Below, piece after piece: positions 27,723 through 42,651 of a DNA stretch of 64,000 bases. The DNA is taken from positions 8,928,001 to 8,992,000 of the forward strand of contig NZ_CP109031.1 in NCBI RefSeq assembly GCF_036226925.1. Reading direction: 5' to 3'. This DNA comes from Streptomyces sp. NBC_00659 (lineage in GTDB: Bacteria; Actinomycetota; Actinomycetes; Streptomycetales; Streptomycetaceae). Below the pieces are notes generated by a model that saw only the letters and a list, made by a program, of their open reading frames with translations, was not told the origin of the DNA and made no database searches. A program made the translations under genes and the position numbers. Position 1 is the first letter of the stretch. Each line of letters begins with the position of its first letter.

Positions 27723-29039
27723 TCAGGCGAGCGTGACCTCGACCGGCAGCTTCTTGATGCCGTTGACGAAGTTGGACAGGACGCGGGGCGCGTCGCCGGC
27801 CAGCTTGATGTCGGCGATCCTCGGGATCAGCTCCTCGAACATGATGCGGATCTCGGTGCGGGCGAGCAGGTTGCCCAGGCACAGGTGCGGGCTGCCCTTG
27901 CCGAAGGTGACGTGATCGTTGTTCGTGCGCGTGACGTCGAAGTCGTACGGGTTGCCGAAGACCTCCTCGTCACGGTTGCCGGAGGCGAACCACATCACCA
28001 CCTTGTCGCCCTCCTTGACCTGCTTGCCGCCGAGCTCGACGTCGCGGGTGGCGGTGCGGCGGAAGTGGTAGACGGGGGAGGCCCAGCGCAGGAACTCCTC
28101 GACCGCGCCCGGGATGAGGGACGGGTCGTCCTTGAGGCGGGCCAACTGCTCGGGGTGCTGGAGGAGCGCCAGCATCGAGTGCGAGATGGTGTGGCGGGTG
28201 GTCTCGTTGCCGGCTACGACCAGAAGCAGGAAGTAGTTGTCGAAGTCCTGCGCGGAGAGCGGGATCCCGTCGCGCGGGACGGTGTTGACCAGCTTTGAGA
28301 CCAGGTCCGTACCGTTGCCGCCGCGGCGCTGCCGGGCCAGTTCGCGCCCGTACTCGAAGACTTCGAGGGAGGCGGGCGAACGGAACGGCAGATCGCGGTA
28401 CTTGTCGCTCTCCGCGCTGTGCAGCAGCACGTCCGCGTAGTCGGGGTCGGTGTTGCCGATGATGCGGTTGCCCCAGTCGATGAGCTGCTGGTTGTCCTCC
28501 GGCGGCACGTCGAGGAGGCGGGCGAGGACGTTGATGGGGAAGTCGGCGGAGACGTCGGCGACGAAGTCGAAGGTGCCCTTGGCCAGGGCGGCGTCCAGGG
28601 TCTGCGCCGTCAGACCGCGCAGGAAGTCGCCGTAGCTGTTGATGACGCTCGCGCCGAACTGGCGCTGGATGACGCTGCGCATCGCGCGGTGCCGGACCCC
28701 GTCCAGCTCCAGGATGGACGCCCGCTTCTTGATCTGGTCGTCGTCGACCTCTTCGAGGTTGACGAACCTCGAAGAGGTGAAGGTCTCCGCGTCGCGGTCC
28801 ACGGTGGCGATGTCCGCGTGCCGGGTGACCGCCCAGAAGCCGGAGTTGGGGGCCTCCTCGGGCTGCCAGTGCACCGGGTCCTCGTGGCGCAGGGTGTGGA
28901 ACATGCGCCACGGCTTGATGCCGTCGGCGAAGTTGTCGAGGTTCGCGAGGTCGACTTCCTCGAGCGGCAGCGGCTCGGCGAGGGCGGCGCGCAGTTCGGC
29001 CTGGGTGGTGGGCGTGGCGGGAACGGTGGGGCTGGTCAT
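27723..29039 (-). CDS. cytochrome P450
   Basis: A 438-residue soluble bacterial P450. Signatures: AGNETTR in helix I, EFLRWASP (ExxR helix K), and the heme loop FGKGSPHLCLG with the Cys ligand at about residue 387. It would need ferredoxin and reductase, both encoded in the divergent operon 2-3 kb away under the same type of operator. It lies 30 bases downstream of the glutamine-synthetase-like gene and is surely co-transcribed with it. Inferred role: oxidation of the gamma-glutamylated amine, or ring hydroxylation. The start ATG follows a TTCTCCTGG-complement ribosome site (AGGAGAACC). Confidence 0.9.
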   Translation of the reverse strand: MTSPTVPATPTTQAELRAALAEPLPLEEVDLANLDNFADGIKPWRMFHTLRHEDPVHWQPEEAPNSGFWAVTRHADIATVDRDAETFTSSRFVNLEEVDDDQIKKRASILELDGVRHRAMRSVIQRQFGASVINSYGDFLRGLTAQTLDAALAKGTFDFVADVSADFPINVLARLLDVPPEDNQQLIDWGNRIIGNTDPDYADVLLHSAESDKYRDLPFRSPASLEVFEYGRELARQRRGGNGTDLVSKLVNTVPRDGIPLSAQDFDNYFLLLVVAGNETTRHTISHSMLALLQHPEQLARLKDDPSLIPGAVEEFLRWASPVYHFRRTATRDVELGGKQVKEGDKVVMWFASGNRDEEVFGNPYDFDVTRTNNDHVTFGKGSPHLCLGNLLARTEIRIMFEELIPRIADIKLAGDAPRVLSNFVNGIKKLPVEVTLA

Positions 29040-29069: not shown

Positions 29070-30425
29070 TTACAGGTGGTAGGCGTACTCGGTGAACTCC
29101 CAGTCGGTGACGTGCCGCCCGAAGCGCTCGACCTCGTCCCGCTTGTAGGTCAGGAAGGACGAGGTGAAGTCCTTGCCGAGGATGTCGGTCAGGGCGGTGT
29201 CCGCCTCCAGCGCGTCCAGCGCCTCGGCCAGGTTCGTGGGCAGCAGGGCGGAGCGCGCGGTGTCGTAGCCGTAGCCCTCCAGGGGCGCCTCCGGCTCCTC
29301 GCCCGCCAGCACGCCGAGGAGCGCGGCGGCGATGGTCCCCGCGATCAGCAGGTAGGGGTTGGCGCTGGCGTCGCCGAGCCGCAGCTCCAGGCGGGCGCCC
29401 GAGCCGCGCTCGGGCGGGATGCGCACCATGGCGCTGCGGTTGTCGAGCCCCCAGTCGATCAGCCAGGGCGCGAGGGTGTCGGGTCCGAAGCGCTTGTACG
29501 AGTTCACGGTCGGGTTGGCGAGCGCGGCGAGCGCGGGGGCGTGGGCGAGGATGCCCGCGATGGCGTGGCGGGCCGTGGCCGAGAGGCCGTACGCGCCCGA
29601 CGGGTCGTCGAAGGCGTTGCGGCCCTCGGCGTCGTCGCAGGACAGGTGGAGGTGGAAGCCGGAGCCGCCGGCGTCGCCGAAGGGCTTGGCCATGAAGGTG
29701 GCAAGGTTGCCCTCCAGCCGGGCGAGCTCCTTGACGGCGGCCTTGAAGCGGAAGGCGCGGTCGGCCGCGTCCAGGGCCGCCGAGTGGGTCAGGTTGATCT
29801 CGTACTGGCCGCCGTCGAACTCGTGGTTGCCGGTGACGACGCCGAGGCCCAGGTCGCGCAGCGCGCGCAGGGTGCGCAGCAGATGGTTGCCCGGGTCGGC
29901 GCGCAGCCCGGCGGTGTAGACGGCTCCGGTGGCCTCGGGGGAGCGGCGCCAGCCGGTGGGGGTGCCGGGGGCGGGCTCCAGCAGGAAGTACTCCAGCTCG
30001 GGGCCGACGACAGGGCGCAGACCCTGCTCGGCGCACCGGGCCAGGACGGTCCGCAGCAGGTCGCGCGGTGATTCCGGGGCGGGGGCCCCGGTCGCCGGGT
30101 CGGTGACCTCGCCGAGACAGGTCGCGACCCCGGGCTCCCACGGCAGTACGGCCGCCGTGGACAGGTCGGGGCGTACGGACACGTCGGGCAGGCCGGCGTC
30201 CAGGCCGCCCGCGACGGGGACGACGTCGCCCTGGGGCGTGGTGTGGTAGACGGCGCGGCAGAAGGCCAGTCCGTGCTCGCAGGCCGAGGGCAGGTGGTCG
30301 AGCAGGACGTCACGGGCGCGGTCGGTGCCGATCAGGTCGGGATAGACGACCCTGACCACGTCGACGCCCTCGGCGGCGAGCCGCTCCATGTGCCGGCGGA
30401 TGTCTGGGGTGTCGGATGCGCTCAC
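29070..30425 (-). CDS. glutamine-synthetase-like gamma-glutamyl-amine ligase
   Basis: A 451-residue protein of the GlnA/PuuA fold. Motifs: VGPELEYFLLEP, NHEFDGGQYEIN, GSGFHLHLS, NSYKRF, RSAMVRIP and RLELRLGDASANPYL, so ATP, metal and glutamate sites appear intact. The divergent substrate pocket and the neighbours PuuC and PuuD point to ligation of glutamate to an organic amine rather than to ammonia. GTG 30425 has AAGGAG 6 bases upstream. First gene of an operon with the P450. Its promoter holds the shared palindromic operator. It could instead act on ethanolamine or a polyamine; the aromatic genes nearby favour an aromatic amine. Confidence 0.88.
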   Translation of the reverse strand: MSASDTPDIRRHMERLAAEGVDVVRVVYPDLIGTDRARDVLLDHLPSACEHGLAFCRAVYHTTPQGDVVPVAGGLDAGLPDVSVRPDLSTAAVLPWEPGVATCLGEVTDPATGAPAPESPRDLLRTVLARCAEQGLRPVVGPELEYFLLEPAPGTPTGWRRSPEATGAVYTAGLRADPGNHLLRTLRALRDLGLGVVTGNHEFDGGQYEINLTHSAALDAADRAFRFKAAVKELARLEGNLATFMAKPFGDAGGSGFHLHLSCDDAEGRNAFDDPSGAYGLSATARHAIAGILAHAPALAALANPTVNSYKRFGPDTLAPWLIDWGLDNRSAMVRIPPERGSGARLELRLGDASANPYLLIAGTIAAALLGVLAGEEPEAPLEGYGYDTARSALLPTNLAEALDALEADTALTDILGKDFTSSFLTYKRDEVERFGRHVTDWEFTEYAYHL

Positions 30426-30702: not shown

Positions 30703-30744
30703 CGTTTGAGTCCGAACGGTATGAGTCGGGTTCTGGTCCCGCAA
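30703..30744 (-). promoter_or_regulatory. promoter and operator of the GS-P450 operon
   Basis: Reading minus: -35 TTGCGG (30744-30739), 17-base spacer, -10 TACCGT (30721-30716), overlapping operator CGTTCGGACTCAAACG (30718-30703). The operator matches copies at 30810, 37365, 39682 and 42633. Overlap with the -10 implies repression. The surrounding gap 30426-30941 (516 bases) contains no gene. Confidence 0.65.
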
Positions 30745-30781
30745 GGGGTTGACGGTAAGAATTTATCCACCTGGATAGGTA

Positions 30782-30825
30782 TTGACCAGGGCCGAGTGGC
30801 TTCCTATGTTGTTTGAAGCCAAACG
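30782..30825 (+). promoter_or_regulatory. promoter and operator of the ferredoxin-hpa operon
   Basis: -35 TTGACC (30782-30787), 17-base spacer, -10 TATGTT (30805-30810), then operator TGTTTGAAGCCAAACG (30810-30825) over the expected start of transcription. Inner arms GTTTG/CAAAC are perfect. Confidence 0.7.
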
Positions 30826-30857
30826 AGTCAGGGACGCGGCTTCGCATCCCTTTGGCC

Positions 30858-30890
30858 GAGGGGCCCGGTCCGGCATCGGCCGGGCCCCTC
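30858..30890 (+). other. leader hairpin of the ferredoxin-hpa operon
   Basis: An 11-bp perfect stem GAGGGGCCCGG / CCGGGCCCCTC lies downstream of the predicted promoter and about 40 bases before the ribosome site of the ferredoxin gene. It could attenuate transcription or stabilise the leader; no T-tract. Confidence 0.5.
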
Positions 30891-30941
30891 ACTTCCCCTT
30901 CCCTCCCTGCTCCGACGCCCGTATCCACAGGAGGACCGGCC

Positions 30942-31130
30942 ATGAAGGTCGTCGTCGACATGATCAAGTGCCAGGACCACGGCCAGTGCGTCTTCGCCGC
31001 CCCCGACGTCTTCTCGATGGACGACGACGGCCACCTCGCCTACGTCTCCGACGTGGACGAGGCGCTGCGCGACGAGGTCGAGGAAGCCGCCGACGTGTGC
31101 CCGCTCCAGGCCATCCGGATCGAGGGCTGA
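30942..31130 (+). CDS. 3Fe-4S-type ferredoxin for the P450
   Basis: A 62-residue ferredoxin of the kind paired with actinobacterial P450s. Cysteines occur as CQDHGQC (Cx5C) near residue 10-16 and CPLQAI near the end, the three-Cys pattern of a [3Fe-4S] cluster. It passes electrons from the reductase next door to the P450. AGGAGG precedes the ATG. First gene of the six-gene plus-strand operon, 5 bases before the reductase gene. Confidence 0.93.
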   Translation: MKVVVDMIKCQDHGQCVFAAPDVFSMDDDGHLAYVSDVDEALRDEVEEAADVCPLQAIRIEG

Positions 31131-31135
31131 TCCCG

Positions 31136-32344
31136 ATGACCGCACGCGTAGTCGTCGCGGGCGCCTCCATGGGCGGCCTGCGCGCCGCCGAACAACTGCG
31201 CGCGGCGGGCTGGACCGGCGAGGTCACCGTCGTCGGCGACGAGCCGCACATGCCCTACAACCGGCCTCCGCTGTCCAAGGAAGTCCTCGCGGGCAAGGCC
31301 TCGTTCGAGTCCCTCGCCTTCACCCCGAAGGCGGCCGCCGCCGATGTCGCATGGCGGCTCGGAACGCGGATCACGACGGCCCGCCTCGACGAGCGCGTGG
31401 TCGAACTCGCCGACGGCGAACGGCTTTCGTACGACGGACTGGTCGTCGCCACCGGAATGCGCCCCCGCCGGCTGCGCTGCCCCGGCCCGCTCGTGGGGCG
31501 CCACACGGTCCGCACCCTCGCCGATGCCCAGGTCCTGCGCGACGCGCTGATCAGGCCCGGAGCACGGGTGGTGGTCGTCGGTGCCGGATTCATCGGCTGC
31601 GAGGTCGCCGCCACCGCCGTAGGACTCGGCGCGGCGGAGGTCACGGTCGTCGACCCGCTGCCACTGCCCATGGCCGGTCCGCTCGGCGACCTGCTGGGCG
31701 GTGCGCTGCTCAAGCGGCACGAGGAGCGCGGAGTGCGCTTCGCGCTCGGCACCGGAGTCGCCGGATTCCAGGGCGACCAGCGGGTCACCGGAGTCGTCCT
31801 CGGCGACGGAACGGTCCTCGCGGCCGACGTGGTCGTGGAGTCGGTCGGCTCGGTCGCCAACACCGAGTGGCTGGACGGCAACGGACTCGACCTGTCCGAC
31901 GGAGTCCTCACGGACGAGCACCTGCGGGTCGGCGGACGCCCCGAGGTCGTCGCGGTCGGCGACGTCGCCCGCTTCCCCAACGCCCGCTACGACGGCGTAC
32001 CCCGCCGTGTCGAGCACTGGTCCATCCCCACCGACACCGCCAAGCACGCCGCGAAGGTTCTCGCCGCCCATCTCGACGGCACGGAAGCCGAGTTGAAGCC
32101 CTTCGCGCCGCTGCCCACGTTCTGGAGCGACCAGCACGACTTCCGGCTCCAGTCCTTCGGCTCGCCGCTGCTCGGCAAGGACGACGTGCGGATCCTCGAA
32201 GGCGACCCGGACGGCGACGTCGTGGTCGGCTACCACACCGGCGACCTCCTGGTCGGCGTCGTGGCGCTCGGCGGCCAGTCCGCCGCGATGCGCGCGGCCC
32301 GCTACCGCGCCCAGCTGCTGAAGCAGCCTGCCCTCACCGCGTAA
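31136..32344 (+). CDS. FAD-dependent ferredoxin reductase
   Basis: A 402-residue NAD(P)H:ferredoxin oxidoreductase of the putidaredoxin-reductase type. Features: the FAD loop VVVAGASMGGLRAAEQL at the N-terminus, MPYNRPPLSKEVL, the NAD(P)H loop VVVVGAGFIGCEVA at about residue 145, and the second FAD motif VVAVGDVARF, with a reductase C-terminal domain after VEHWSIP. It supplies the ferredoxin encoded immediately upstream. Starts 5 bases after the ferredoxin stop. Together with the P450 they form a complete class I P450 chain. Confidence 0.92.
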   Translation: MTARVVVAGASMGGLRAAEQLRAAGWTGEVTVVGDEPHMPYNRPPLSKEVLAGKASFESLAFTPKAAAADVAWRLGTRITTARLDERVVELADGERLSYDGLVVATGMRPRRLRCPGPLVGRHTVRTLADAQVLRDALIRPGARVVVVGAGFIGCEVAATAVGLGAAEVTVVDPLPLPMAGPLGDLLGGALLKRHEERGVRFALGTGVAGFQGDQRVTGVVLGDGTVLAADVVVESVGSVANTEWLDGNGLDLSDGVLTDEHLRVGGRPEVVAVGDVARFPNARYDGVPRRVEHWSIPTDTAKHAAKVLAAHLDGTEAELKPFAPLPTFWSDQHDFRLQSFGSPLLGKDDVRILEGDPDGDVVVGYHTGDLLVGVVALGGQSAAMRAARYRAQLLKQPALTA

Positions 32345-32366
32345 CGAAGCGTTAGGAATCCCCGCT

Positions 32367-33173
32367 ATGTCCCCTGTCCGTGGCTTCTTCCACCCCAAGA
32401 CGGCCGGCGGCACCTCGTCGCTCGTCCCGTCCCCGCCGTGGCGCTACTCCGGTGATCTGCTCACCGTGGAGTACCGCACCGATCCCGCACGGGTGCGTGA
32501 ACTGCTGCCCGCACCACTGGAGTTGGCCGACGAGGACCCGGGCGCTGTCGCGATGATCTGGGCCGACTGGCAGTCCTGCTCCGGCTCCGGCGAGGAACTG
32601 CTCGACCCGGTTCTCGCCCAGTACAAGGAGGCGTTCGCGGTCGTCCGCTGCAAGTACCGGGGACAGACCTACACCCGCTGCGTGTACATCTGGGTCGACA
32701 AGGACTTCGCCATCGCCCGCGGACTGCACCAGGGCTACCCGAAGAAGCTCGGCTCGATCCACCAGACCCGCCCGCACCCCTACGGCCCGGCCCCGCGCAT
32801 CGAGTCCGGCGCCCGCTTCGGCGCCACCCTCGCCGCCGCCGACCGGCGCCTCGCCCAGACCGTGGTCACCCTGCGGGAGCCGTCCGAGACCAACGGCTTC
32901 GTCAACGCCAACCCCATGGCCCACCACCGCTGGCTGCCCTCCGTCGAGAAGGGCAAGGGCCTCGCGCTCGACGAACTGATCGAGACGGGTGCCGCCTCCT
33001 TCGAGGGCGGACAGCCCTGGGTCGGCGACGCCGAACTGGAGCTGTTCGAGGCGCCCACCGAGGAGCTGGCCCGACTGGAGATCCGCGAGCCGATCGCCGC
33101 CTACTACCGGCAGGTCGGTGTCGTCTGGGACGGCGGACGACTTCTGGAGTCCGGCACCTCCGGCGCCGAGTGA
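32367..33173 (+). CDS. acetoacetate-decarboxylase-family protein
   Basis: A 268-residue ADC-fold protein. The Schiff-base lysine region is conserved as GYPKKLGSIHQTR (Lys126/Lys127). True acetoacetate decarboxylases use the first Lys, so decarboxylation or aldol/dehydration chemistry through an enamine is plausible. Its place directly before hpaE, hpaD and hpaG suggests a step in the ring-cleavage route, perhaps on an oxo-acid intermediate; this is inference. Lies 22 bases after the reductase gene. Confidence 0.85.
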   Translation: MSPVRGFFHPKTAGGTSSLVPSPPWRYSGDLLTVEYRTDPARVRELLPAPLELADEDPGAVAMIWADWQSCSGSGEELLDPVLAQYKEAFAVVRCKYRGQTYTRCVYIWVDKDFAIARGLHQGYPKKLGSIHQTRPHPYGPAPRIESGARFGATLAAADRRLAQTVVTLREPSETNGFVNANPMAHHRWLPSVEKGKGLALDELIETGAASFEGGQPWVGDAELELFEAPTEELARLEIREPIAAYYRQVGVVWDGGRLLESGTSGAE

Positions 33174-33213
33174 CCCCGACCACCGTACCCACCACAGGAC
33201 TTGGAGTCCGGAC

Positions 33214-34677
33214 ATGACCGAGCACACCCTCACGGTGGCCGGGGTCGCCGTCGACACCCGGCACTGGATCGGCGGCGAACGCGTCGCCTCCGCCGAGACG
33301 TTCACCGACGTCTCGCCGATCGACGGGAGCGTCCTCGGCGAGATCTCCCGGGGCACCGCGGCGGAGGCCGATCTGGCCGTGGCCGCCGCGAAGGCCGCCT
33401 TCCCCGCCTGGGCCGCCACCTCCCGTGCCGAACGCGCCCGCATCCTGCACGCCGTCGCCGACGGCGTGGAGAAGCGGATCGAGGACCTGGCGATCGTCGA
33501 GACCACCGACAACGGCGCCCTGCTGCGCTCGCACCGCCGGGGCGTGATGCCGCGCGTCGCCCACAACTTCCGCTTCTTCGCCGACTGGCTCCTGAAGCTG
33601 GACCACGAGGACTTCGAGACCCGCGGCCACACCAACCACGTCAGCTGGGACCCGGCCGGCCCCTCGGTGCTGATCACCCCCTGGAACGCCCCGCTGATGC
33701 TGTCGACCTGGAAGGTCGCCCCGGCCCTCGCCGCCGGCAACACGGTCGTCCTCAAGCCCGCCGAATGGACCCCGCTGACCGCGTCCCTGCTCGCGGACAT
33801 CGCCGCCGAGGCCGGACTGCCCGCCGGCGTCCTCAACATCGTCCAGGGGTACGGCTCCGAGATCGGCGACGCCCTCACCTCGCACCCCGACGTGCGTCGC
33901 ATCAGCTTCACCGGTTCCGTGCCGACCGCCCAGCGGATCACGCAGTCGGCCGCCGCGAACCTCACCCCGCTCAGCCTCGAACTCGGCGGCAAGTCACCGC
34001 TGTTGGTCTTCGCGGACGCCGACCTCGACCTCGCCGTCGACCTCGCCGTGGAGCAGTACGACAACGCGGGCCAGGTCTGTCTCGCCGCCACCCGCATCCT
34101 GGTCGAGAAGACCGTCGCCGAGGAGTTCACCCGCCGGTTCGCGGAGAAGGCCGCGGTCATCGTGCAGGGCGACCCGCGCGACGAGGCCACCGACATCGGC
34201 CCGAACATCCACGAGCGCCAGCTGGAGAAGATCGACGGCTTCGTGCGGCGCGCGGTCGAGGCGGGCGCCCGCGCGGTCATCGGCGGGCACCGCGGAGAAG
34301 GCCGGTACTACGCGCCGACCCTCCTCACCGACGTCGCCCAGGACTCCGAGATCGTCCAGGAGGAGGTCTTCGGACCCGTCCTGACCCTCCAGACCTTCAC
34401 CACCGAGGACGAGGCGGTCCGGCTCGCCAACGACACCCGCTTCGGCCTCGCCGCCACCCTCGCCACCGGCGACCGGGACCGCGCCGCACGCGTCACACAG
34501 CGGCTCGTCGCCGGGACGGTCTGGGTCAACTGCTTCTTCGTACGCGACCTCCAGGCGCCCTTCGGCGGCTCCCGCCACTCCGGCGTCGGCCGGGAAGGCG
34601 GCACCTGGAGCTTCGACTTCTACTGCGACCTGAAGAACACCGTGACCGCGCCGAAGGGATGGAAAGACCATGGGTGA
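33214..34677 (+). CDS. hpaE: 5-carboxymethyl-2-hydroxymuconate semialdehyde dehydrogenase (HpaE-type)
   Basis: A 487-residue NAD(P)-dependent aldehyde dehydrogenase. Catalytic Cys289 is in NAGQVCLAATR and the general base Glu256 in LELGGKSP; the Rossmann region FTGSVPTAQRI is present. Adjacency to an HpaD-like extradiol dioxygenase and an HpaG-like hydrolase identifies the likely substrate as the ring-fission semialdehyde of homoprotocatechuate. ATG 33214 is chosen; an open frame upstream runs through the ADC gene and is not real. Its end overlaps the dioxygenase start by 8 bases. Confidence 0.82.
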   Translation: MTEHTLTVAGVAVDTRHWIGGERVASAETFTDVSPIDGSVLGEISRGTAAEADLAVAAAKAAFPAWAATSRAERARILHAVADGVEKRIEDLAIVETTDNGALLRSHRRGVMPRVAHNFRFFADWLLKLDHEDFETRGHTNHVSWDPAGPSVLITPWNAPLMLSTWKVAPALAAGNTVVLKPAEWTPLTASLLADIAAEAGLPAGVLNIVQGYGSEIGDALTSHPDVRRISFTGSVPTAQRITQSAAANLTPLSLELGGKSPLLVFADADLDLAVDLAVEQYDNAGQVCLAATRILVEKTVAEEFTRRFAEKAAVIVQGDPRDEATDIGPNIHERQLEKIDGFVRRAVEAGARAVIGGHRGEGRYYAPTLLTDVAQDSEIVQEEVFGPVLTLQTFTTEDEAVRLANDTRFGLAATLATGDRDRAARVTQRLVAGTVWVNCFFVRDLQAPFGGSRHSGVGREGGTWSFDFYCDLKNTVTAPKGWKDHG

Positions 34678-35605
34678 GATCGTCGGGGCGGGGCTGCTCG
34701 CCCACGTCCCCACCATCGTGCTCCCCGAGGAGATCCGGCTGGAGCTGAACGAGGGCAAGGAGATCACCCTCGTCACCGGCCTGGAACAGCTTCGCCGGGA
34801 GGTCTTCGAACGCGACGACTACGACACCGTCGTGGTCCTCGACTCGCACTGGGCGACCACCGTCGAGTTCGTCGCCACCGCCCAGCCGCGCCGGGCCGGC
34901 CTGTTCACCTCCGAGGAACTGCCGCGGGGCATGTGCCGGATGCCGTACGACTATCCCGGAGACCCCGAACTCGCCCACAACATCGCGAAGTTCGCGGACA
35001 AGCACGGCACATGGATCACCGCGATCGACGACGAGTACCTGCCGGTCTACTACGCCACCATCAACCTCTGGAAGTTCCTGGGGGAGGGGCTGCCCGACAA
35101 GCGGTGGGTGACCATCGGGGTGTGCCAGACCGGCGACATGGAGGACCATCTGCGGCTGGGCCGGGCCCTCGCCGACGGCATCGCCGCCACCCCCGGCCGC
35201 CGGGTGCTGCTCATCGCCTCGGGCGCCCTCTCGCACACCTTCTGGCCGCTGCGCGAACTGCGGGACCACGAGTCCGGCGACCCGGCGCACATCTTCACCC
35301 CCGAGGCGCGCGCGGCCGACGAGGAGCGCATCACCTGGTTCAAGGAGGGCCGTCACGACAAGGTCCTCGACACCATGGACGAGTTCTGGAAATACAAGCC
35401 CGAGGCCAAGTTCTTCCACTACCTGATGATGGCCGGCGCCCTCGGCGAAGGAGCCTGTGTCGCCACGGCCCGCCAGTACGGCGAGTACGAGAACTCGATC
35501 GGCACCGGACAGGTCCACCTCTGGTTCGACCGTCCGGCCGACGGCTGGACCGGCGCGGGAACACCCGCGGCCGTCGCACCCCACAACCCGCACCGACGTT
35601 CCTAG
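34670..35605 (+). CDS. hpaD: 3,4-dihydroxyphenylacetate 2,3-dioxygenase (HpaD/HpcB, class III)
   Basis: A 311-residue LigB-fold extradiol dioxygenase. Matches to the enterobacterial HpcB family include the N-terminal HVP (His12), DSHW (His60), FTSEELP, SGALSH and SIGTGQVH. These residues set up the iron site that opens the catechol ring of homoprotocatechuate. The gene overlaps the end of hpaE by 8 bases and is followed 9 bases later by hpaG, so the three are translated together. Slightly longer than the E. coli enzyme because of a C-terminal tail. Confidence 0.85.
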   Translation: MGEIVGAGLLAHVPTIVLPEEIRLELNEGKEITLVTGLEQLRREVFERDDYDTVVVLDSHWATTVEFVATAQPRRAGLFTSEELPRGMCRMPYDYPGDPELAHNIAKFADKHGTWITAIDDEYLPVYYATINLWKFLGEGLPDKRWVTIGVCQTGDMEDHLRLGRALADGIAATPGRRVLLIASGALSHTFWPLRELRDHESGDPAHIFTPEARAADEERITWFKEGRHDKVLDTMDEFWKYKPEAKFFHYLMMAGALGEGACVATARQYGEYENSIGTGQVHLWFDRPADGWTGAGTPAAVAPHNPHRRS

Positions 35606-35614
35606 GAAGCCGCC

Positions 35615-36460
35615 ATGCCCGAATACCGCCGCATCCTCCTCGACGGCGCCGCCGTCCAGGCCACCGTCGACGGGGACGAACTCGTCGCCGGTGACGGCCG
35701 CCGGGTCAAGACCGAGGAGGCACAGCACCTGCCCCCGGTCGTGCCCTCCAAGGTGATCGCCGTCCACCTCAATCACCGCAGCCGCGTCGACGAGTTCGGG
35801 ATCGAACTCCCGCCCACTCCCACGTACTTCCACAAGCCGACCTCCTCCCTCAACTCCCACAAGGGCGCCGTCGTCCGCCCCGAGGGATGCAAGTGGCTCA
35901 ACTACGAGGGCGAGGTGGCCATCGTCATCGGGAGGACGGCACGCAACATCTCCCCGGCCGAGGCGGGGGAGTACATCGCCGGCTACACCGTCGCCAACGA
36001 CTACGGCCTGCACGACTTCCGGGACACCGACGCTGGCTCCATGCTCCGCGTCAAGGGCTCCGACACCCTGTGCCCGCTCGGCCCCGGCCTGGTCACCGAC
36101 TGGGACTTCCGCGGCAAGAGCCTGCGCACATACGTCAACGGCGAGGTGGTGCAGGACGGTTCGACCGACGAGATGCAGTGGGACATGCACTACCTCGTCG
36201 CCGACATCGCCCGCACCATCACCCTGCACCCCGGCGACGTCCTGCTGTCCGGCACCCCGGCCAACTCCCGCCCCGTACAGCCCGGTGACGTCGTCGAGGT
36301 CGAGGTCGAGGGCCTGGGACGGCTCACCAACCACATCGTGACCGGCCCCACCCCGATCCGCGCCGACGTGGGCGCCCAGCCCACCGAGTCCGAAGAGGTG
36401 CTGTCCACCGCGCTCGGCGGGGACTGGGAGTTCCGCGGCATCCGTCCGCCCCGGCGCTGA
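35615..36460 (+). CDS. hpaG: fumarylacetoacetate-hydrolase-family isomerase/decarboxylase (HpaG-type)
   Basis: A 281-residue FAH-fold protein. Core features: KVIAVHLNHRSR, WLNYEGEVAIVIGR with the metal-binding Glu, GYTVANDYGLHDFRD, and LLSGTPANSRPVQPGDVVEV. In the homoprotocatechuate pathway HpaG decarboxylates and isomerises the tricarboxylic ring-fission product. Alternatives in the family include acylpyruvate hydrolase, but the neighbours favour HpaG. Last gene of the operon. hpaF, hpaH and hpaI are not in the window. Confidence 0.83.
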   Translation: MPEYRRILLDGAAVQATVDGDELVAGDGRRVKTEEAQHLPPVVPSKVIAVHLNHRSRVDEFGIELPPTPTYFHKPTSSLNSHKGAVVRPEGCKWLNYEGEVAIVIGRTARNISPAEAGEYIAGYTVANDYGLHDFRDTDAGSMLRVKGSDTLCPLGPGLVTDWDFRGKSLRTYVNGEVVQDGSTDEMQWDMHYLVADIARTITLHPGDVLLSGTPANSRPVQPGDVVEVEVEGLGRLTNHIVTGPTPIRADVGAQPTESEEVLSTALGGDWEFRGIRPPRR

Positions 36461-36615
36461 TGCCCGCCGCACGAGGGCGCAGCGCCGGCCAGGACGGCGT
36501 GAGCCGCCCGGCGGGCCGCTCCGGCGCGCGGCGCGCGGAACCCGGCACGGGCACCACCAAGGGGCCCGTGCCGGTCCGCCCCGGGCCCCCTGAGCAGGCA
36601 GGTAGGGTCGGGACC

Positions 36616-37242
36616 ATGACCGAAACCGCCGAGACGCCTGAGGGCCGAAAGCCGCGTCGGCGCATGAACTACGGGGAGGGCCGCGAAGCCCTGCTCAACG
36701 CCGCCGTGCGCGTCGTGGCCAGGGGCGGGCTGCGCCGGCTCACCTACCGGGCCGTGGCGGAGGAGGCGGGCACCACGCACGGGCTGGTCGTGCACCACTT
36801 CGGTTCGCGCGACGCGCTCATCGAGGAAGCGGTCGCGCACGCGATCCGCACCTCCCTGAACACCAGCGCGCTGGAGCCCGGCACCGGCAAGGTCGAGGAC
36901 TTCTCGGTGGGAGTGTCCGAGATGGTCACGGCCGATCCGGACATCCAGTCGTTCCAGTACGAGCTGCTCCTGGAAGCCAGGCGCCGCCCCGAACTGCTCC
37001 CGCATCTGCGCGCGTTGTACGACGAGTACTTCGACGCCACCGGACGCGAGCTGTCCCGCATGCTGCCCGGCGGAGCCGGGCAGCCGCTCACCCGGCTCGT
37101 CTTCGCCGCCCTCGACGGCCTGGTCCTGCACCAGCTCGTCTTCGGCGGCCCCGAGGTCACCGACGCCGCCATCGAGGAGCTGCGCTCGCTGCTCCGGCTG
37201 CTGGAGGCCCGGCGGCACACCGACGCCGAGAGCCGCGACTGA
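36616..37242 (+). CDS. TetR-family regulator
   Basis: A 208-residue regulator with an N-terminal HTH: REALLNAAVRVVARGGLRRL then YRAVAEEAGTTHGLVVHHFG. The C-terminal ligand domain is all-helical. Lies between hpaG and the permease on the same strand and could control either. Its own upstream region lacks the shared palindrome found at the other promoters of the cluster, so it is not the best candidate for the common regulator. ATG 36616 follows GGGTCGGG. A hairpin terminator follows. Confidence 0.88.
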   Translation: MTETAETPEGRKPRRRMNYGEGREALLNAAVRVVARGGLRRLTYRAVAEEAGTTHGLVVHHFGSRDALIEEAVAHAIRTSLNTSALEPGTGKVEDFSVGVSEMVTADPDIQSFQYELLLEARRRPELLPHLRALYDEYFDATGRELSRMLPGGAGQPLTRLVFAALDGLVLHQLVFGGPEVTDAAIEELRSLLRLLEARRHTDAESRD

Positions 37243-37263
37243 CGTTGCGACCCGCGTGTTCCA

Positions 37264-37292
37264 AGGCCCCGGACGCCTGTCGTCCGGGGCCT
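37264..37292 (+). terminator. hairpin terminator after tetR-like gene
   Basis: Perfect 11-bp stem AGGCCCCGGAC / GTCCGGGGCCT with a 7-base loop, 21 bases after the TetR stop. Confidence 0.8.
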
Positions 37293-37364
37293 GTCGTGTT
37301 CGGGGCAGGAAACCGGCCGCAGCCCCTTGTCAAACGGATAGTTCCAGCTCAGTATGAGGCAACT

Positions 37365-37380
37365 CGTTTGGCCTGAAACG
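37365..37380 (+). promoter_or_regulatory. shared operator upstream of the permease
   Basis: CGTTTGGCCTGAAACG, arms CGTTT/AAACG, is the third copy of the cluster palindrome. A TTGTCA (37327-37332) upstream may be the -35, with a weak -10 before the operator. A half-site CAAACG lies at 37331-37336. Confidence 0.6.
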
Positions 37381-37412
37381 AATCCCTCTTTCCTCACTGG
37401 CAGGTGATCCGA

Positions 37413-38873
37413 GTGGACAGTCAGACAGCGGTCGTGAACCAGACCGCGCCCGACGCCCCCACAGCAGGCAAGCTCAAGCCCAACTCGCTCGGCGTTCTGG
37501 GCATCCTCTTCTTCGTCCTCTCCGCCCAGGCACCGCTGACCGGTGTCGCGGGCGCCGTTCCCATCGCCGTCGGCATCGGAAACGGCGCGGGGGCACCGGC
37601 CGCCTATGTGGTGGCGGGTCTGATCACCCTGCTCTTCTCCGTCGGCTTCGTGGCGATGGGCCGGCACGTCGTGGACGCCGGCGCCTTCTACACGTACATC
37701 GGCAAGGGGCTCGGCCGGACCGTCGGGACCGGCAGCGCGGGGATCGCGCTGTTCGCCTACTGCGCGATCCAGGCCGCCATGTACGGCCTGTACGGGGCGA
37801 CCGTCAACGGCCTGCTCGCCCACTACACAGGCGTGGACGTGCCCTGGTGGGCGTGCGCCCTGGTCACGATGGTGATCGTCCAGGTGCTCGGCAGCGTGGG
37901 CATCGAGATGGGCGCGAAGGTGCTGGCGGTCTTCGTCCTGGCCGAGTTCAGCATCCTCAGCGTCTTCGCGCTGGTCACCTTCTTCAAGGGCGGCGGGCCC
38001 GAGGGTCTGGCCTTCACGGAGTCCTTCTCGCCGAGCGCGGCCTTCGACGGCGCCCCGGGTGTGGCCCTGATGTTCGCCGTGGCGTCGATGATCGGCTTCG
38101 AGGCCACCGCGATCTACGGCGAGGAGGCGCGCGAACCCCGCAAGACCGTCCCGCGGGCCACCTACGCGGCCGTCGCCTTCGTCACCGGCTTCTTCGGGTT
38201 CGCCTCCTGGATGCTGGTCTCCTCCTACGGACCCTCGAAGGTGTCCGGGGCGGCCGGCAACGCCCTGGAGAGCGGCGACTCGACGAGCTTCGTCTTCGCG
38301 CCCATCGCCGACCTGCTCGGCACCTGGGTCAACGACGTCCTGCCCGTCCTGCTGGTGACTTCCCTCTTCGCCGGCATCCTCGCCTTCCACAACTCCGCCA
38401 ACCGCTACCTGTTCTCGCTCAGCCGCGACGGACTGCTGCCGCGCAAGCTGTCGTCGATCAACCACCGGCACTCGCCCAGCGCGGCCGGCTGGGTCCAGAC
38501 GGCCATCGCGGTCCTGCTGGTGGTCCCGTTCGCGCTGGCCGGCAAGGACCCCGTGGTGACCCTGTTCTCCTGGGGCAGCGGCGTGGCCGTCCTCGGCATC
38601 ATGGCGCTGTACCTGCTGACGTCGGTCTCCGTGGTGGTCTTCTTCCGCCGTGAACGCCTGGACACCCGGCCGTGGAACACCCTGATCGCTCCTTCCCTGG
38701 GAGCCCTCGGTGTGGCCGGGGCGATCTGGCTGATCGTCCAGAACTTCGCCACGCTCATCGGGGGCGAGAGCAGTACCGCCCTCGTGCTCGAACTGACCGT
38801 CCCGGCCGTCCTCGTCCTGGGCCTCGTGGCGGCACGGCTCACCCGTGACAAGGCCGGTGCCGCCGGCGGCTGA
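37413..38873 (+). CDS. APC-superfamily amino acid/amine permease
   Basis: A 486-residue permease with about 12 membrane helices. The first helix carries the APC-type signature LSAQAPLTGVAGAVPIAVG, and FVAMGRHVVDAGAFYTYIG follows. APC members take up amino acids, putrescine and other amines by proton symport. Its shared operator and place beside PuuC and PuuD suggest that it imports the amine substrate of the cluster. GTG 37413 is chosen over GTG 37404 because AGG lies 8 bases upstream. Confidence 0.87.
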   Translation: MDSQTAVVNQTAPDAPTAGKLKPNSLGVLGILFFVLSAQAPLTGVAGAVPIAVGIGNGAGAPAAYVVAGLITLLFSVGFVAMGRHVVDAGAFYTYIGKGLGRTVGTGSAGIALFAYCAIQAAMYGLYGATVNGLLAHYTGVDVPWWACALVTMVIVQVLGSVGIEMGAKVLAVFVLAEFSILSVFALVTFFKGGGPEGLAFTESFSPSAAFDGAPGVALMFAVASMIGFEATAIYGEEAREPRKTVPRATYAAVAFVTGFFGFASWMLVSSYGPSKVSGAAGNALESGDSTSFVFAPIADLLGTWVNDVLPVLLVTSLFAGILAFHNSANRYLFSLSRDGLLPRKLSSINHRHSPSAAGWVQTAIAVLLVVPFALAGKDPVVTLFSWGSGVAVLGIMALYLLTSVSVVVFFRRERLDTRPWNTLIAPSLGALGVAGAIWLIVQNFATLIGGESSTALVLELTVPAVLVLGLVAARLTRDKAGAAGG

Positions 38874-38888
38874 CGCACGCCGGGCCGG

Positions 38889-39598
38889 TCAGCCGGCCCG
38901 GTCCGCCGTCCGGCCGAGGAAACCGTCGGCCAGCCGGCGGGCGTTCGTCCGGGCCATGGGTTCCATGGCCCGGCTCCGCGCCGGCAGTTCGCCGGGGTCC
39001 ACACCGTGGCGTACGCACTGCTCCGCTCCGCCGGCCTCGATCCAGCCGCGCACCATCGCCGTGGTGATCTCCGGATGGAACTGCACACCCAGGCCGGTCT
39101 CCGTTCTGAAGGCCTGGACGCACACCTCGTTGCGGGCCACCTCCTTGGCTCCCGGCGGCAGGACGCAGCGGTCGAAGTGCCGCTGGAACCAGGGGCCCGG
39201 CCCCACCAGGGACGGATCGTCCGTGGCGACCTCGACCCAGTCGATCTCCGGGCGCGGCGACGCCTCCGCGCGACCGCCGGGCGCGGTGGTCAGCGCCCGG
39301 GCGCCGAAACAGGCCCCGAGCACCGGGACGCCGAGGCGGTCGGCCTCGCGCAGGAGGGACAGTTCGCCCTCGATCCAGGAACCGACGGCCGTCCGGTCGT
39401 ACACCGACCACGGGCCCCGAGCGACACGATCAGGTCCCAGCCGCCCGCAGCGGGGAAGCCGAACTCGACGTCCGGCGCGTGATGGCGGTGCTCGGGCACG
39501 ACCGTCATGACCGTGAGGTCGTACCCGCGCTCCTCCAGCCGGGCTCCGACCAGCCCCGGCTCCGTCACATGGTCGTGCTGGACGACGAGCGCTCGCAC
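38889..39598 (-). pseudogene. class I glutamine amidotransferase gene with a single-base frameshift
   Basis: Read from GTG 39598 (GGGAG 8 bases upstream), the N-terminal half (VRALVVQHDHVTEPGLVG ... DLIVSLGA) is in one frame and the remainder (WSVYDRTAVGSW, the nucleophile elbow LGACFGARAL with its Cys, and VQFHPE) in another. Restoring one C in the run at about 39411-39418 would join LGA-PWSVYD exactly as in intact relatives. It is either a recent mutation or a sequencing slip. Intact, it would be a GATase of about 236 residues, able to hydrolyse a gamma-glutamyl amide. Divergent from puuC. Confidence 0.82.
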
Positions 39599-39655
39599 GG
39601 TGGCGCTCCCTTCCCCGCGGTGCCCGTGGACCTGCCGGATCGATGCAAGGAGCCC

Positions 39656-39697
39656 TTGCCCAGGCTCCGCGCCCACCTTATCGTTTGGGTTCAAATA
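39656..39697 (+). promoter_or_regulatory. promoter and operator of puuC-puuD
   Basis: -35 TTGCCC (39656-39661), 17-base spacer, -10 TATCGT (39679-39684), overlapping operator CGTTTGGGTTCAAATA (39682-39697). Same geometry as the GS-P450 promoter. It may also influence the divergent amidotransferase gene. Confidence 0.68.
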
Positions 39698-39715
39698 ACT
39701 TTCTGGAGGCCCCGC

Positions 39716-41206
39716 ATGACGGACGTCACCCACGCGGAGTGGCTGCTCCGAGCCAAGTCCCTGGACCTTTCCGGCGCCCATCACATCGACGGCGCCGACG
39801 AGGACGGCGGGGGAGCCGCCTTCGACGCCGTCTCACCCCGTGACGGCCAGGTGCTCACCCGCGTCGCCGACGCGGGCACCACCGAGGTCGACGCCGCCGT
39901 CGCCGCCGCCCGCCGCGCCTTCGACACCGGCCCCTGGCCGCGCCTCGCGCCCGCCGAACGCGGCGCCGCGCTGCTGCGCATCGCCGACCTCCTCCAGGAG
40001 CGCCGGGCCGACCTCGCGCTCACCGTCAGCCTGGAGATGGGAAAGCCCATCACCGACGCGTACGACATCGAACTGCGCGCCCTGATCAACACCTTCCGCT
40101 GGTACGGACAGCTCGCCGACAAGCTCACCGACGAGTCCCCGCACACCAGCGCGGACGCGCTAGCCCTGGTCACCCGGGAACCGGCAGGAGTCGTCGGCGC
40201 CGTCGTGCCGTGGAACTTCCCCCTGACGCTCGCCGGCTGGAAGGTCGCCCCCGCGCTCGCCGCCGGCTGCACGGTCGTCCTGAAGCCCTCGGAGAACTCG
40301 CCCCTGTCCGCGCTCCTCCTGGGCCGCATCGCCACCGAGGCCGGACTGCCGCCGGGCGTCCTCAACGTCGTGGGAGGCACCGGCCCGGTGGCAGGCCGGG
40401 CGATCGGCCTCCACCCGGACGTCGACGTCCTCGCCTTCACCGGCTCCACCGCCGTCGGCCGCCACTTCCTGCACTACGCCGCCGACTCCAACCTCAAGCG
40501 CGTATGGCTCGAACTGGGCGGCAAGTCACCGAACATCATCCTTCCCGACGCTCCCGACCTGGAGAAGGCGGCCGCCACCGCGGCCTGGGGCATCTTCTTC
40601 AACCAGGGCGAGATGTGCACGGCCCCCTCCCGGCTCCTCGTACACGCCTCGATCGCGGAACAGGTCACCGAGTCCGTCGTACGACGGGCACGTGAACTGC
40701 GGATCGGCGACCCCCTCGATCCGTCCACCGAGATGGGCGCCCTGGTCGGTGAAGCGCACCTGGGCCGCGTACAGGACCACATCTCCACCGGCCTGGCCGA
40801 GGGCGCCCGGCTGCGCACCGGCGGATCCCGCACCCTCACCGACACCGGCGGCAGCTTCCTGGAACCGACCGTCTTCGACCGGGTGGACCCCGGTATGCGG
40901 CTCTCCCGGGAGGAGATCTTCGGCCCGGTCCTGTCGGTCCTCGCGTTCGACGACCTGGACGAGGCCGTACGGCTCGCCAACGACACCGAGTACGGGCTCG
41001 CCGCAGGCCTGTGGACTTCCGACCTGTCGACCGCGCACCGGGTCTCCCGCGCACTGAAGGCCGGAACCGTCTGGGTCAACTGCTACGAGGAGGGTGACCT
41101 GACCGTCCCCTTCGGAGGCATGAAGCAGTCGGGCAACGGCCGCGACAAGTCCGCCCACGCCCTGGAGAAGTACACCGAACTCAAGACCACCTGGATCCAG
41201 CTTTGA
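39716..41206 (+). CDS. puuC: gamma-glutamyl-aminoaldehyde dehydrogenase (PuuC-type)
   Basis: A 496-residue aldehyde dehydrogenase. Catalytic Cys301 lies in NQGEMCTAPSR and Glu266 in WLELGGKSPN. The C-terminus (VPFGGMKQSGNGRDKSAHAL, then EKYTELKTTWI) follows that of E. coli PuuC closely. It should oxidise gamma-glutamyl-linked or free aldehydes to acids with NAD(P). ATG 39716 has CTGGAGG upstream. The stop overlaps the start of puuD by four bases. Confidence 0.87.
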   Translation: MTDVTHAEWLLRAKSLDLSGAHHIDGADEDGGGAAFDAVSPRDGQVLTRVADAGTTEVDAAVAAARRAFDTGPWPRLAPAERGAALLRIADLLQERRADLALTVSLEMGKPITDAYDIELRALINTFRWYGQLADKLTDESPHTSADALALVTREPAGVVGAVVPWNFPLTLAGWKVAPALAAGCTVVLKPSENSPLSALLLGRIATEAGLPPGVLNVVGGTGPVAGRAIGLHPDVDVLAFTGSTAVGRHFLHYAADSNLKRVWLELGGKSPNIILPDAPDLEKAAATAAWGIFFNQGEMCTAPSRLLVHASIAEQVTESVVRRARELRIGDPLDPSTEMGALVGEAHLGRVQDHISTGLAEGARLRTGGSRTLTDTGGSFLEPTVFDRVDPGMRLSREEIFGPVLSVLAFDDLDEAVRLANDTEYGLAAGLWTSDLSTAHRVSRALKAGTVWVNCYEEGDLTVPFGGMKQSGNGRDKSAHALEKYTELKTTWIQL

Positions 41207-41913
41207 CACGCCCACTGATCGCCGTTCCGGCACGCTTCTCCGCGACGACCTCCGCCCTGCGGTACGCCGCCGAGGTCAACGCCCGCGCCCTGATAGAGGC
41301 GGTGTGGCGGGCCGGCGGCGAACCGGTGACCATTCACCCGGCGGATCCCGCTGTCACGGACGTGACCGGACGCCTCGCCCGCTTCGACGGTGTCCTGCTC
41401 CCCGGCGGCGGCGACCTCGCTCCGTACCGCTACGGAGCCGCCGACACCCACGGCAGCGTCTACGACGTCGACGACCTCCAGGACGCCTTCGACCTCGAAG
41501 TCGCCCGCCGGACGCTGGACTTGGGTCTTCCGCTGCTGGCCATCTGTCGCGGCCTCCAGGTCGTCAACGTGGCTCTCGACGGCACTCTGGAACAGGACAT
41601 GGGCGGCCCCGAGCGCGAACACCGGCACATCGTGCACCCGGTGGCCATCGAGCGCGGAACCCTGCTGGAACGGGCCACCGGCGCGCAGAAGGCGGAGGCG
41701 TCCTGCTATCACCACCAGCGGGTCGAGCGCCTCGGCTCAGGTCTGACGGTCACCGCACGCGCCGCGGACGGGACCGTGGAGGGCCTTGAACTCCCGGACG
41801 GCGAAGGGTGGTTCACCGCGGTGCAGTGGCATCCTGAGGACACCGCACACGAGGATCCCGTCCAGCAGGCGCTGTTCGACGCGCTGGTCGGCGCGGCCGA
41901 CGACGGACGCTGA
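41203..41913 (+). CDS. puuD: gamma-glutamyl-amide hydrolase (PuuD-type class I GATase)
   Basis: A 236-residue peptidase C26 protein that removes the glutamyl group from gamma-glutamyl products. The nucleophile is Cys115 in LLAICRGLQ, with His210 in VQWHPED and an LPGGGDLAP oxyanion strand. TTG start within a 4-base TTGA overlap with puuC gives tight coupling. With the GS-like ligase and PuuC it makes three of the four enzymes of the E. coli putrescine route; the oxidase PuuB is missing. Confidence 0.88.
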   Translation: MTRPLIAVPARFSATTSALRYAAEVNARALIEAVWRAGGEPVTIHPADPAVTDVTGRLARFDGVLLPGGGDLAPYRYGAADTHGSVYDVDDLQDAFDLEVARRTLDLGLPLLAICRGLQVVNVALDGTLEQDMGGPEREHRHIVHPVAIERGTLLERATGAQKAEASCYHHQRVERLGSGLTVTARAADGTVEGLELPDGEGWFTAVQWHPEDTAHEDPVQQALFDALVGAADDGR

Positions 41914-42042
41914 TCCTGTTGGGCTGTTCGGTTGCGGGGCCGTGAGGTTGTGGGGGCGAGGGGCTGCCGGACCTCGGCCCCGTCCCCTGGACCACAGATC
42001 CCTGTTCCCGGCCCCTGGACCAGCGGCCCCGGCCCGCGGCCC

Positions 42043-42615
42043 TCAGCCCTTCGCCCGTCGGCCGCTGCGGCGGCGGGCCGGTTCGGCACCGTCGAGGAGG
42101 GTGAGACGGCGTTCCTCGCCCTCCTCCTCGACCTGGCGCACGACCTGCCGCAGCCCTTCGGCGACGGTGTGGCACTCGTCGTCGCTGAGCCGCGAGGCGA
42201 CGAACGCCTCCTCCTGGTTGAACCGCGGGAACAGGCGCTCCATGAGCGCTTCGCCCTCGTCGGTCAGACTGAGCAGCTTCAGCCGGCCGTCGGAGGGATG
42301 ACCGGCGCGTGTCATCAGCCCCCGTCCCTCCAGGGTCCGCGAGACACCGGTGAGCGTGCCCTTGGAGATCCCGGCCTCCTCGGCGACGTGCCGGGTCTCC
42401 GACTCGCCCCAGATCCAGACCACCCAGAGCACGACGAAGGACGTCCAGGTCAGATCCGCGTCGCGCAGCACCGAGTTCTCCAGGTGCTGCCGGACCGCCG
42501 AGGCGGCACGGTAGATATTGGCGACCACCGCCATCTGCTCGCGGTGTATCGGAATACCGCCCAGCTTCGCGGCTGCCAGCTTCTCCGCTTCAGTGATGGA
42601 CCGATGGCCGGGCAT
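42043..42615 (-). CDS. MarR-family regulator, candidate repressor of the amine/aromatic regulon
   Basis: A 190-residue MarR protein: VVLWVVWIWGESETRHVAEE, the recognition helix GISKGTLTGVSRTLEGRGLM and the wing HPSDGRLKLLSLTDEG. N- and C-terminal extensions make it longer than usual; the basic C-terminal tail (ARRRSGRRAKG) may aid DNA binding. HpaR, the repressor of homoprotocatechuate genes in enterobacteria, is also a MarR protein. Its promoter contains the same palindrome as the four other control regions, consistent with autoregulation. ATG 42615 has GGAG 7 bases upstream. Confidence 0.88.
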   Translation of the reverse strand: MPGHRSITEAEKLAAAKLGGIPIHREQMAVVANIYRAASAVRQHLENSVLRDADLTWTSFVVLWVVWIWGESETRHVAEEAGISKGTLTGVSRTLEGRGLMTRAGHPSDGRLKLLSLTDEGEALMERLFPRFNQEEAFVASRLSDDECHTVAEGLRQVVRQVEEEGEERRLTLLDGAEPARRRSGRRAKG

Positions 42616-42632
42616 AGGCACGCTCCGTTGAT

Positions 42633-42651
42633 CGTTCGGACCCAAATTGTA
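42633..42651 (-). promoter_or_regulatory. marR promoter -10 and autoregulatory operator
   Basis: On the minus strand, -10 TACAAT (42651-42646) overlaps AATTTGGGTCCGAACG (42648-42633), the fifth copy of the cluster palindrome, with the same offset to the -10 as at the GS and puuC promoters. The -35 is poor. Confidence 0.62.

Follow-up and report, generated by a model that had tools for sequence, protein, structure and literature searches.

The locus examined here raises the question of which regulator, or regulators, act on a 16-bp palindrome (A) that stands before five control regions of one putative amine-breakdown gene cluster. The cluster lies in a window of Streptomyces sp. NBC_00659 DNA, the window being the whole stretch of 64,000 nucleotides that was analysed. 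A sequence-only reading of this window had assigned all five copies to one repressor, most simply the MarR-family protein. Comparative sequence evidence argues for that protein, but a second palindrome (B), linked to a TetR-family protein, had been overlooked, and exceptions remain. Probably, A is the operator of MarR (42043-42615) and B a TetR site, with the two acting as independent inputs. The genes and sites are listed below, with the evidence for each site in parentheses.

27723..29039, minus strand: cytochrome P450; among solved structures its best sequence relative is CYP125MRCA
29070..30425, minus strand: glutamine-synthetase-like protein (GS), probably of the gamma-glutamyl-amide ligase type; TIGR03105 304.2 bits, below the cut-off of 469.6
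30703..30718, minus strand: A site 1, putative GS-P450 operator (sequence; conserved spacing to A site 2)
30764..30777, no strand assigned: B site, palindrome TATCCACCTGGATA, proposed TetR site (4 bp before the -35 of the ferredoxin promoter)
30782..30810, plus strand: predicted ferredoxin-operon promoter, TTGACC-17-TATGTT (sequence; kept in 69 loci)
30810..30825, plus strand: A site 2, putative operator of the ferredoxin-hpa-like operon (sequence and conservation)
30942..31130, plus strand: ferredoxin; PF13370
31136..32344, plus strand: ferredoxin reductase; NF042949 221 bits, below the cut-off of 450
32367..33173, plus strand: acetoacetate-decarboxylase/MppR-like protein; PF06314; TIGR04460 167.9 bits, below the cut-off of 380
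33214..34677, plus strand: HpaE-like aldehyde dehydrogenase; TIGR02299 533.6 bits, cut-off 638.35
34670..35605, plus strand: LigB/HpaD-like extradiol dioxygenase; PF02900; TIGR02298 120.8 bits, cut-off 315.95
35615..36460, plus strand: FAH/HpaG-like hydrolase-decarboxylase; PF01557; TIGR02303 213.5 bits, cut-off 276.4
36619..37242, plus strand: TetR-family regulator, proposed to bind B, its gene following the enzyme genes of the ferredoxin operon; PF00440, PF17940
37327..37340, plus strand: TTGTCAAACGGATA, a degenerate site resembling B, over the -35 of the permease (sequence)
37365..37380, plus strand: A site 3, putative permease operator (sequence and conservation)
37404..38873, plus strand: amino-acid/amine permease; TIGR00909 79 bits, below the cut-off of 556.8
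39682..39697, plus strand: A site 4, putative puuC-puuD operator (sequence; part of the loci only)
39716..41206, plus strand: PuuC-like aldehyde dehydrogenase; NF007352 564.9 bits, cut-off 850
41203..41913, plus strand: PuuD-like gamma-glutamyl hydrolase; PF07722; NF008471 71.9 bits, cut-off 266
42043..42615, minus strand: MarR-family regulator of 190 aa, proposed A-binding repressor; PF01047 42.6 bits, cut-off 24.6
42633..42648, minus strand: A site 5, putative marR operator (sequence and conservation before marR orthologues)

Re-scanning the window recovered the five A palindromes where they had first been reported. The consensus as originally written, CGTTYGGNNYCAAAYG, is matched exactly only at 30703-30718 (minus strand), and each of the other four copies carries one mismatch. 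At up to three mismatches the window contains 28 matches against 25.1 +/- 5.7 expected, which is no excess; the claim for A is therefore carried by close matches and conservation. Genome-wide, 134 matches were found at up to two mismatches, compared with 87 for the reversed pattern, and eight sites at up to one mismatch, five of which fall inside this 12-kb stretch. Because the consensus was derived from the same copies, this clustering is partly post hoc, and independent support for A comes from conservation in relatives. Two of the three sites outside the cluster (scores 14.6 and 14.8) lie within long open frames. The third, at 6385457 (score 20.9), is surrounded only by shorter open frames.

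Promoter hexamers and operator offsets were re-read by eye on the sequence, and the geometry first described was borne out. At GS, puuC and marR the first operator base is the fourth of the -10, a three-base offset, and at the ferredoxin promoter it is the last. The GS-P450 promoter reads TTGCGG-17-TACCGT (minus strand; -35 at 30744-30739, -10 at 30721-30716) and the puuC promoter TTGCCC-17-TATCGT (-35 at 39656-39661, -10 at 39679-39684). The marR -10 is TACAAT (42651-42646, minus strand), and reading by eye gave no convincing -35 there. The permease copy is clear of any -10, as had been noted: a conserved TTGNCA-17-CANNAT lies upstream, with the -10, CAGTAT, at 37350-37355, and the operator starts nine bases further down. 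A sites 1 and 2 are 106-109 bp apart in all 69 loci with both measured.

Conservation of the palindrome at orthologues, which the sequence-only reading had proposed as a check, was found at the same promoters, in part only for the puuC copy. Upstream of ferredoxin and GS (420 bp before ferredoxin), A was present in 73/73 orthologous loci, 69 of which carry two A sites. Scans of 150 bp found A upstream of the permease in 64/66 loci (absent in L050 and L062) and upstream of puuC in only 28/54, and the background rate was 3/3463 in random windows. Operon-internal genes had no A within the preceding 60 bp. Sites from L001-L080 that lay within two mismatches of the symmetrised consensus CGTTYGRNNYCRAACG supplied the weight matrix for A, so that the A scores of those loci are partly circular; a plain-consensus scan of the loci reproduces the same pattern. 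An alignment of 72 of 80 loci was chosen by a pattern requiring a B-like word and then an A-like start and is unusable as conservation evidence, since its selection presupposed both words; the conservation of A and B is taken from other scans.

The MarR protein has a winged-helix domain (PF01047) and the palindrome in its own promoter. Distinct marR upstream regions were taken from the best 30 matches of the MarR searches, marR of the HM190 clade and selected stretches, with identical regions and those shorter than 100 bp dropped; A (score at least 9.5) was found in 97 of these 104, compared with 6/2080 for a letter-shuffled control. Seven regions were without A and four more scored below 11. 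The partial MarR-like copies L239 and L240, not included in this count, are both without A. The palindrome also precedes marR genes that lie far from the GS locus (G013, G189, G110 and G091). Across 43 testable GS loci, with regulator labels assigned by hand, G130 (a 34% identity match) left off the MarR list and G144 (only 81 bases scanned) excluded from the A and B counts, A was present in 40/40 with MarR and 1/3 without it. Absence of a regulator here means no match at the E-value of the search concerned, and the first genome searches were limited to 8-16 first-look candidates scored in each genome. In G081, an assembly of 700 contigs, A is present and MarR was not found.

Palindrome B (TATCCRNNYGGATA, 30764-30777) was spotted by eye in the window. 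It is the sole perfect match in the genome, with 14 more places at one mismatch. B occurs upstream of ferredoxin in 71/73 loci and, at up to two mismatches, upstream of the permease in 41/66. The TetR protein scores 45.6 bits on PF00440, against a cut-off of 24 for this N-terminal domain, and 75.5 bits on PF17940. At the GS loci, B is present in 33 of 34 with TetR in the genome and in none of nine without it. In L037 and L043, B is kept and TetR is not beside the cluster yet is present elsewhere in the genome. Among the exceptions, the second GS locus of G033 has A and lacks B despite TetR in the genome, L051, also a second locus, is without B, and in L290 and L291, where the TetR gene is displaced, no B was seen close to it.

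It is very unlikely that TetR binds A and that MarR is a bystander. In its favour, tetR is one of the cluster genes, and palindromic operators about as long as A occur in the TetR family. The complete chromosome of Streptomyces sp. HM190 (L064) also carries TetR and A-like sites at ferredoxin/GS and the permease, but no MarR orthologue was found there (best match E 1e-9) and the syntenic slot is empty; all seven other searched genomes of its GS clade carry MarR, so that a recent loss of MarR in HM190 is possible. Against TetR as the A-binding protein, however, A is kept in the GS loci of 7/7 genomes with MarR and no TetR match, and at GS/ferredoxin in L050 and L062, whose genomes also have no TetR match. 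Conversely, L158/G147, with TetR and no MarR, retains B and a TTGCAA-17-TATCTT promoter and only half an A site. The ten fetched genomes with MarR but neither GS nor a TetR match have A before marR in six cases and none in four, while tetR itself has neither A nor B within 150 bp upstream in 68/68 loci. The choice of MarR over TetR for A thus held up by comparison. G147 also bears on the notion, scarcely credible to us, that the palindromes have no regulator of their own and reflect constraint on the promoter sequence. A does overlap the -10 at four of the five promoters, but its conserved letters span both arms of the 16 bp, past the -10, the permease copy is outside its -10, and in G147 A has decayed with -35-like and -10-like hexamers still in place.

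An unlikely alternative accepts MarR at A and takes B for the site of an unrelated activator or a core-promoter element. B does sit just ahead of the -35, a location that would suit an activator, and the tetR start has no B of its own. Yet B is missing from all nine GS loci of TetR-less genomes, and in L050 and L062 the -35 and both A sites are intact and the B slot has different letters. Moreover, a perfect B stands about 55-100 bp before the gene's own start in 4/6 fetched TetR paralogues (56-58% identity), and before the TetR start of L248 and L249 too. Because A follows MarR while B follows TetR, two separable inputs, MarR at the start sites and TetR upstream, are likely, with MarR the best candidate for A.

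Relatedness of the genomes limits the independent comparisons. For TetR and B there are one to two well-supported contrasts (three to four on the best tree); for MarR and A there are two (three on the best tree), one in the expected direction and one showing no difference. None of the phylogenetic contrast tests was significant, because independent contrasts are too few. Contrasts were counted on a quick tree with labels set by hand, L004, L015 and L069 (cut upstream) were excluded, and genomes not searched for MarR were entered as having it.

From the conservation and geometry of the sites, and from their co-presence with each regulator, we infer the following mechanism. A MarR dimer would cover the -10/start region of the GS-P450, ferredoxin, puuC and marR promoters, including that of its own gene, and would bind just below the -10 at the permease, repressing all five units until the substrate or a pathway intermediate releases it. 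TetR, encoded in the ferredoxin operon, would bind B directly upstream of the ferredoxin -35 as a second, independent input, and may recognise a weaker form of its site over the permease -35. More doubtful, though possible, is an extended reading in which the cluster encodes an undescribed gamma-glutamyl-dependent catabolism of aromatic amines and the divergent promoter region integrates a MarR block of both starts, via A sites 106-109 bp apart, with TetR activation from B (centre near -46 at ferredoxin and -61 at GS, counted from starts predicted about 7 nt below the -10); evolution could then discard either input along with just the operator that belongs to it.

Two known pathways were considered for the enzymes and rejected. 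HpaD, HpaE and HpaG of the hpa meta-cleavage pathway all fall under the NCBIfam cut-offs listed above, as do PuuC and PuuD of the Puu polyamine pathway, for which gamma-glutamylputrescine synthetase also scores 262 against 650. One TetR-less relative has a tyrosine-decarboxylase-like gene, which only hints at an aromatic amine substrate. Among the open-access matches listed, no description of glutamylation combined with P450 and meta-cleavage was found, and the MarR ligand may therefore also reveal the substrate. Two uncharacterised regulators gain predicted operators, and target promoters can be predicted for them as well. Each regulator is naturally absent from some relatives, and there its operator is missing too, the named exceptions aside.

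Several characterised systems resemble parts of this arrangement. HpaR is the MarR repressor of the homoprotocatechuate meta operon, and the MarR gene studied here likewise lies beside hpaD/hpaE/hpaG-like genes. Its product scores 44.4 bits on the HpaR equivalog TIGR02337, far under the 121.2-bit cut-off, just as the enzymes fall under the hpa cut-offs. Chain 3zpl, presumably SCO3205, is among the sequence relatives of the cluster MarR. Of the pseudopalindromic operators of the Streptomyces MarR protein SCO3205, two lie ahead of the SCO3205 gene itself, and the operator consensus given in the cited passages, TTnAAnnnTCAA, differs from that of A (PMC3737563). PcaV of Streptomyces coelicolor, described in PMC5487221 as the MarR repressor of the protocatechuate operon, is likewise a repressor of aromatic catabolism in Streptomyces to which the cluster MarR is related by sequence (4fht, E 7e-8); however, similarity is low, the gene cluster is another one, and the present cluster has five operators in separate places as well as a site for a second regulator. 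Gamma-glutamylating catabolism of aromatic amines is represented by NpaA1/AtdA1 (PMC11335346, in the passages cited). Together with GlnA3 and GlnA4 of S. coelicolor, as far as these are described, these systems, like the cluster, combine a GS-like ligase with partners of the GATase and PuuC/PuuD type, whereas the cluster adds P450/ferredoxin/reductase and LigB/HpaE/HpaG-like meta-cleavage sets. Two transcriptional regulators acting on one catabolic region are reported for SpG8-1b of Agrobacterium fabrum (PMC7797058), which differs in pathway and organism and has a regulator of the GntR superfamily.

It is highly probable that palindrome A, a 16-bp sequence recurring across one catabolic cluster, is the operator of the MarR protein encoded there, and that a second palindrome, B, is the site of the cluster's TetR protein, as judged by comparing sites and regulators among relatives. 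The cluster spans 27.7 to 42.6 kb of the window in a genome of 9.66 Mb on a single contig; the NCBIfam names of its genes denote resemblances only, with scores under the curated cut-offs.

P450 gene and glutamine-synthetase-like ligase gene (GS, 29070..30425), minus strand
30703-30718 and 30810-30825, palindrome A, the two ferredoxin/GS copies
30764-30777, palindrome B, TATCCACCTGGATA, directly upstream of the ferredoxin -35
Ferredoxin, ferredoxin reductase, ADC/MppR-like, HpaE-like (ALDH), LigB/HpaD-like, FAH/HpaG-like and TetR (36619..37242) genes, plus strand
37365-37380, palindrome A, permease copy
Permease gene
39682-39697, palindrome A, puuC copy
PuuC-like and PuuD-like genes
MarR gene (42043..42615), minus strand
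42633-42648, palindrome A, marR copy

All five A palindromes reported by the sequence-only reading were confirmed, one matching its written consensus exactly and four with one mismatch each; the whole genome holds eight sites at ≤1 mismatch, five of them inside the cluster. Conservation was scored in 80 fetched loci around GS orthologues (threshold score ≥12). The supposition that A is kept in orthologous loci held for ferredoxin (within 420 bp upstream in 73/73 testable loci, with two sites in 69) and the permease (within 150 bp in 64/66), but at puuC A lay within 150 bp upstream in only 28/54. Random windows taken from these GS loci, past their P450 side, contained A in 3/3463 cases at 420 bp and 1/3463 at 150 bp. 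No A was found in the 60 bp before ADC, ALDH, LigB or P450 (0/75 each) or FAH (0/74), and TetR had none within 150 bp upstream in 68 loci. Spacing of the two ferredoxin/GS sites was 106-109 bp in 69/69 loci measured, and exactly 107 in 37. Of 104 distinct marR upstream regions fetched, 97 carried an A site of the gene's own (score ≥9.5; four <11), mostly overlying a TAC-AAT -10, with 6/2080 for shuffled sequences. Positions 37354-37373 (ATGAGGCAACTCGTTTGGCC), running from the permease -10 into its operator, were nearly invariant across 62 loci, including bases between the two that the A site alone does not account for. Over the GS -35 (30738-30748), CCCGCAAGGGG was strongly conserved in a gapped alignment and less so in an ungapped one.

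Palindrome B was spotted by eye. Its perfect form, TATCCRNNYGGATA, occurs once in the genome, at B, with one-mismatch matches at 14 further places, and a degenerate form overlies the permease -35. At ≤2 mismatches, B was present upstream of ferredoxin in 71/73 loci versus 26/3463 random windows. The two loci lacking it (L050 and L062) come from genomes without a TetR match and keep the -35, the -10 and both A sites; at the B position their sequence is unrelated. Two others (L037 and L043) have no TetR next to the cluster; it is encoded elsewhere in the genome, and B is kept. Of six TetR paralogues fetched (56-58% identity), 4/6 had a perfect B close to their start. In each of two further loci, a second paralogue of TetR (57-58%; L248:11014-11538 and L249:10895-11419) likewise carries a perfect B close to its start; it lies ~4 kb from puuD and, in L249, adjoins MarR.

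Among 199 genomes of the genus Streptomyces, matches to MarR were found in 51, TetR in 34 and GS in 43, and A and B were scored upstream of 44 GS loci from these 43. Genomes with both regulators contributed 32 loci with both sites, one that is a second locus of G033 and has A alone, and one (G144) cut by a contig end. MarR without TetR accompanied A only (7 loci), and TetR without MarR accompanied B only (one locus, G147, whose cluster, L158, retains B and a TTGCAA-17-TATCTT promoter with the A site reduced to half). Where neither regulator was found, one locus had neither site (G158) and one had A only (G081). B was thus present at 33/34 loci with TetR and 0/9 without. On a quick GS tree, TetR-less rows fell in about four places, two forced by well-supported branches; of the two well-supported TetR-B contrasts, one ran in the expected direction and the other, among paralogous loci, mostly showed no difference. 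One of two MarR-A contrasts ran in the expected direction, and one showed no difference; a test on so few contrasts has no statistical power.

The sequence-only reading took MarR as the simplest repressor acting through A, and co-presence favours this assignment, A occurring at 40/40 GS loci with MarR versus 1/3 without, the exception being G081. In a separate search of 49 genomes with a GS locus, 48 yielded MarR. In the remaining one, Streptomyces sp. HM190, nothing better than E 1e-9 was found and the syntenic marR slot is empty, while A-like sites are kept at ferredoxin/GS and the permease. A recent loss is possible, since all 7 other genomes searched in its GS clade have MarR. That TetR binds A, with MarR a bystander, is very improbable, yet HM190, with TetR and A and no MarR, slightly strengthens it, as do marR genes in genomes without GS: of 11 such genomes, 10 were fetched (G130, with a 34%-identity match, was left out), and A was upstream of marR in 6 and absent in 4. 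The assignment of A to MarR is slightly weakened by the same observations.

As a MarR operator, A would block polymerase and thereby repress, which fits its position: at four promoters it covers the -10 or the start region, and at the remaining one it lies immediately below the -10. The site at marR fits autoregulation, which MarR may well exert; according to PMC5487221, regulators of this sort commonly control their own genes and have palindromic sites in promoters. The centre of B, at about -46 for ferredoxin and -61 for GS by predicted starts, is compatible with repressor or activator alike.

Between permease and puuC, a glutamine-amidotransferase-like gene (38889-39601, minus strand) has its homology split across two reading frames and looks frameshifted in the window; similar genes occupy the same position in several relatives. 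Four clusters (L042, L047, L072 and L158) have no reported ferredoxin, P450 or permease orthologue, suggesting that the P450 system is an optional module. In a TetR-less relative, a gene lying between FAH and ADC (L142:14655-16025, plus strand) encodes a decarboxylase similar to tyrosine decarboxylases (TIGR03812, 121.3 bits, under the cut-off of 299.4), which hints at an aromatic amine as the cluster substrate.

Among the open-access papers listed by keyword searches, A, B and the cluster did not appear. The operator consensus published for SCO3205 (PMC3737563) differs from A. The system is probably of a known type, in which MarR governs a local regulon and a second regulator is linked to the cluster.
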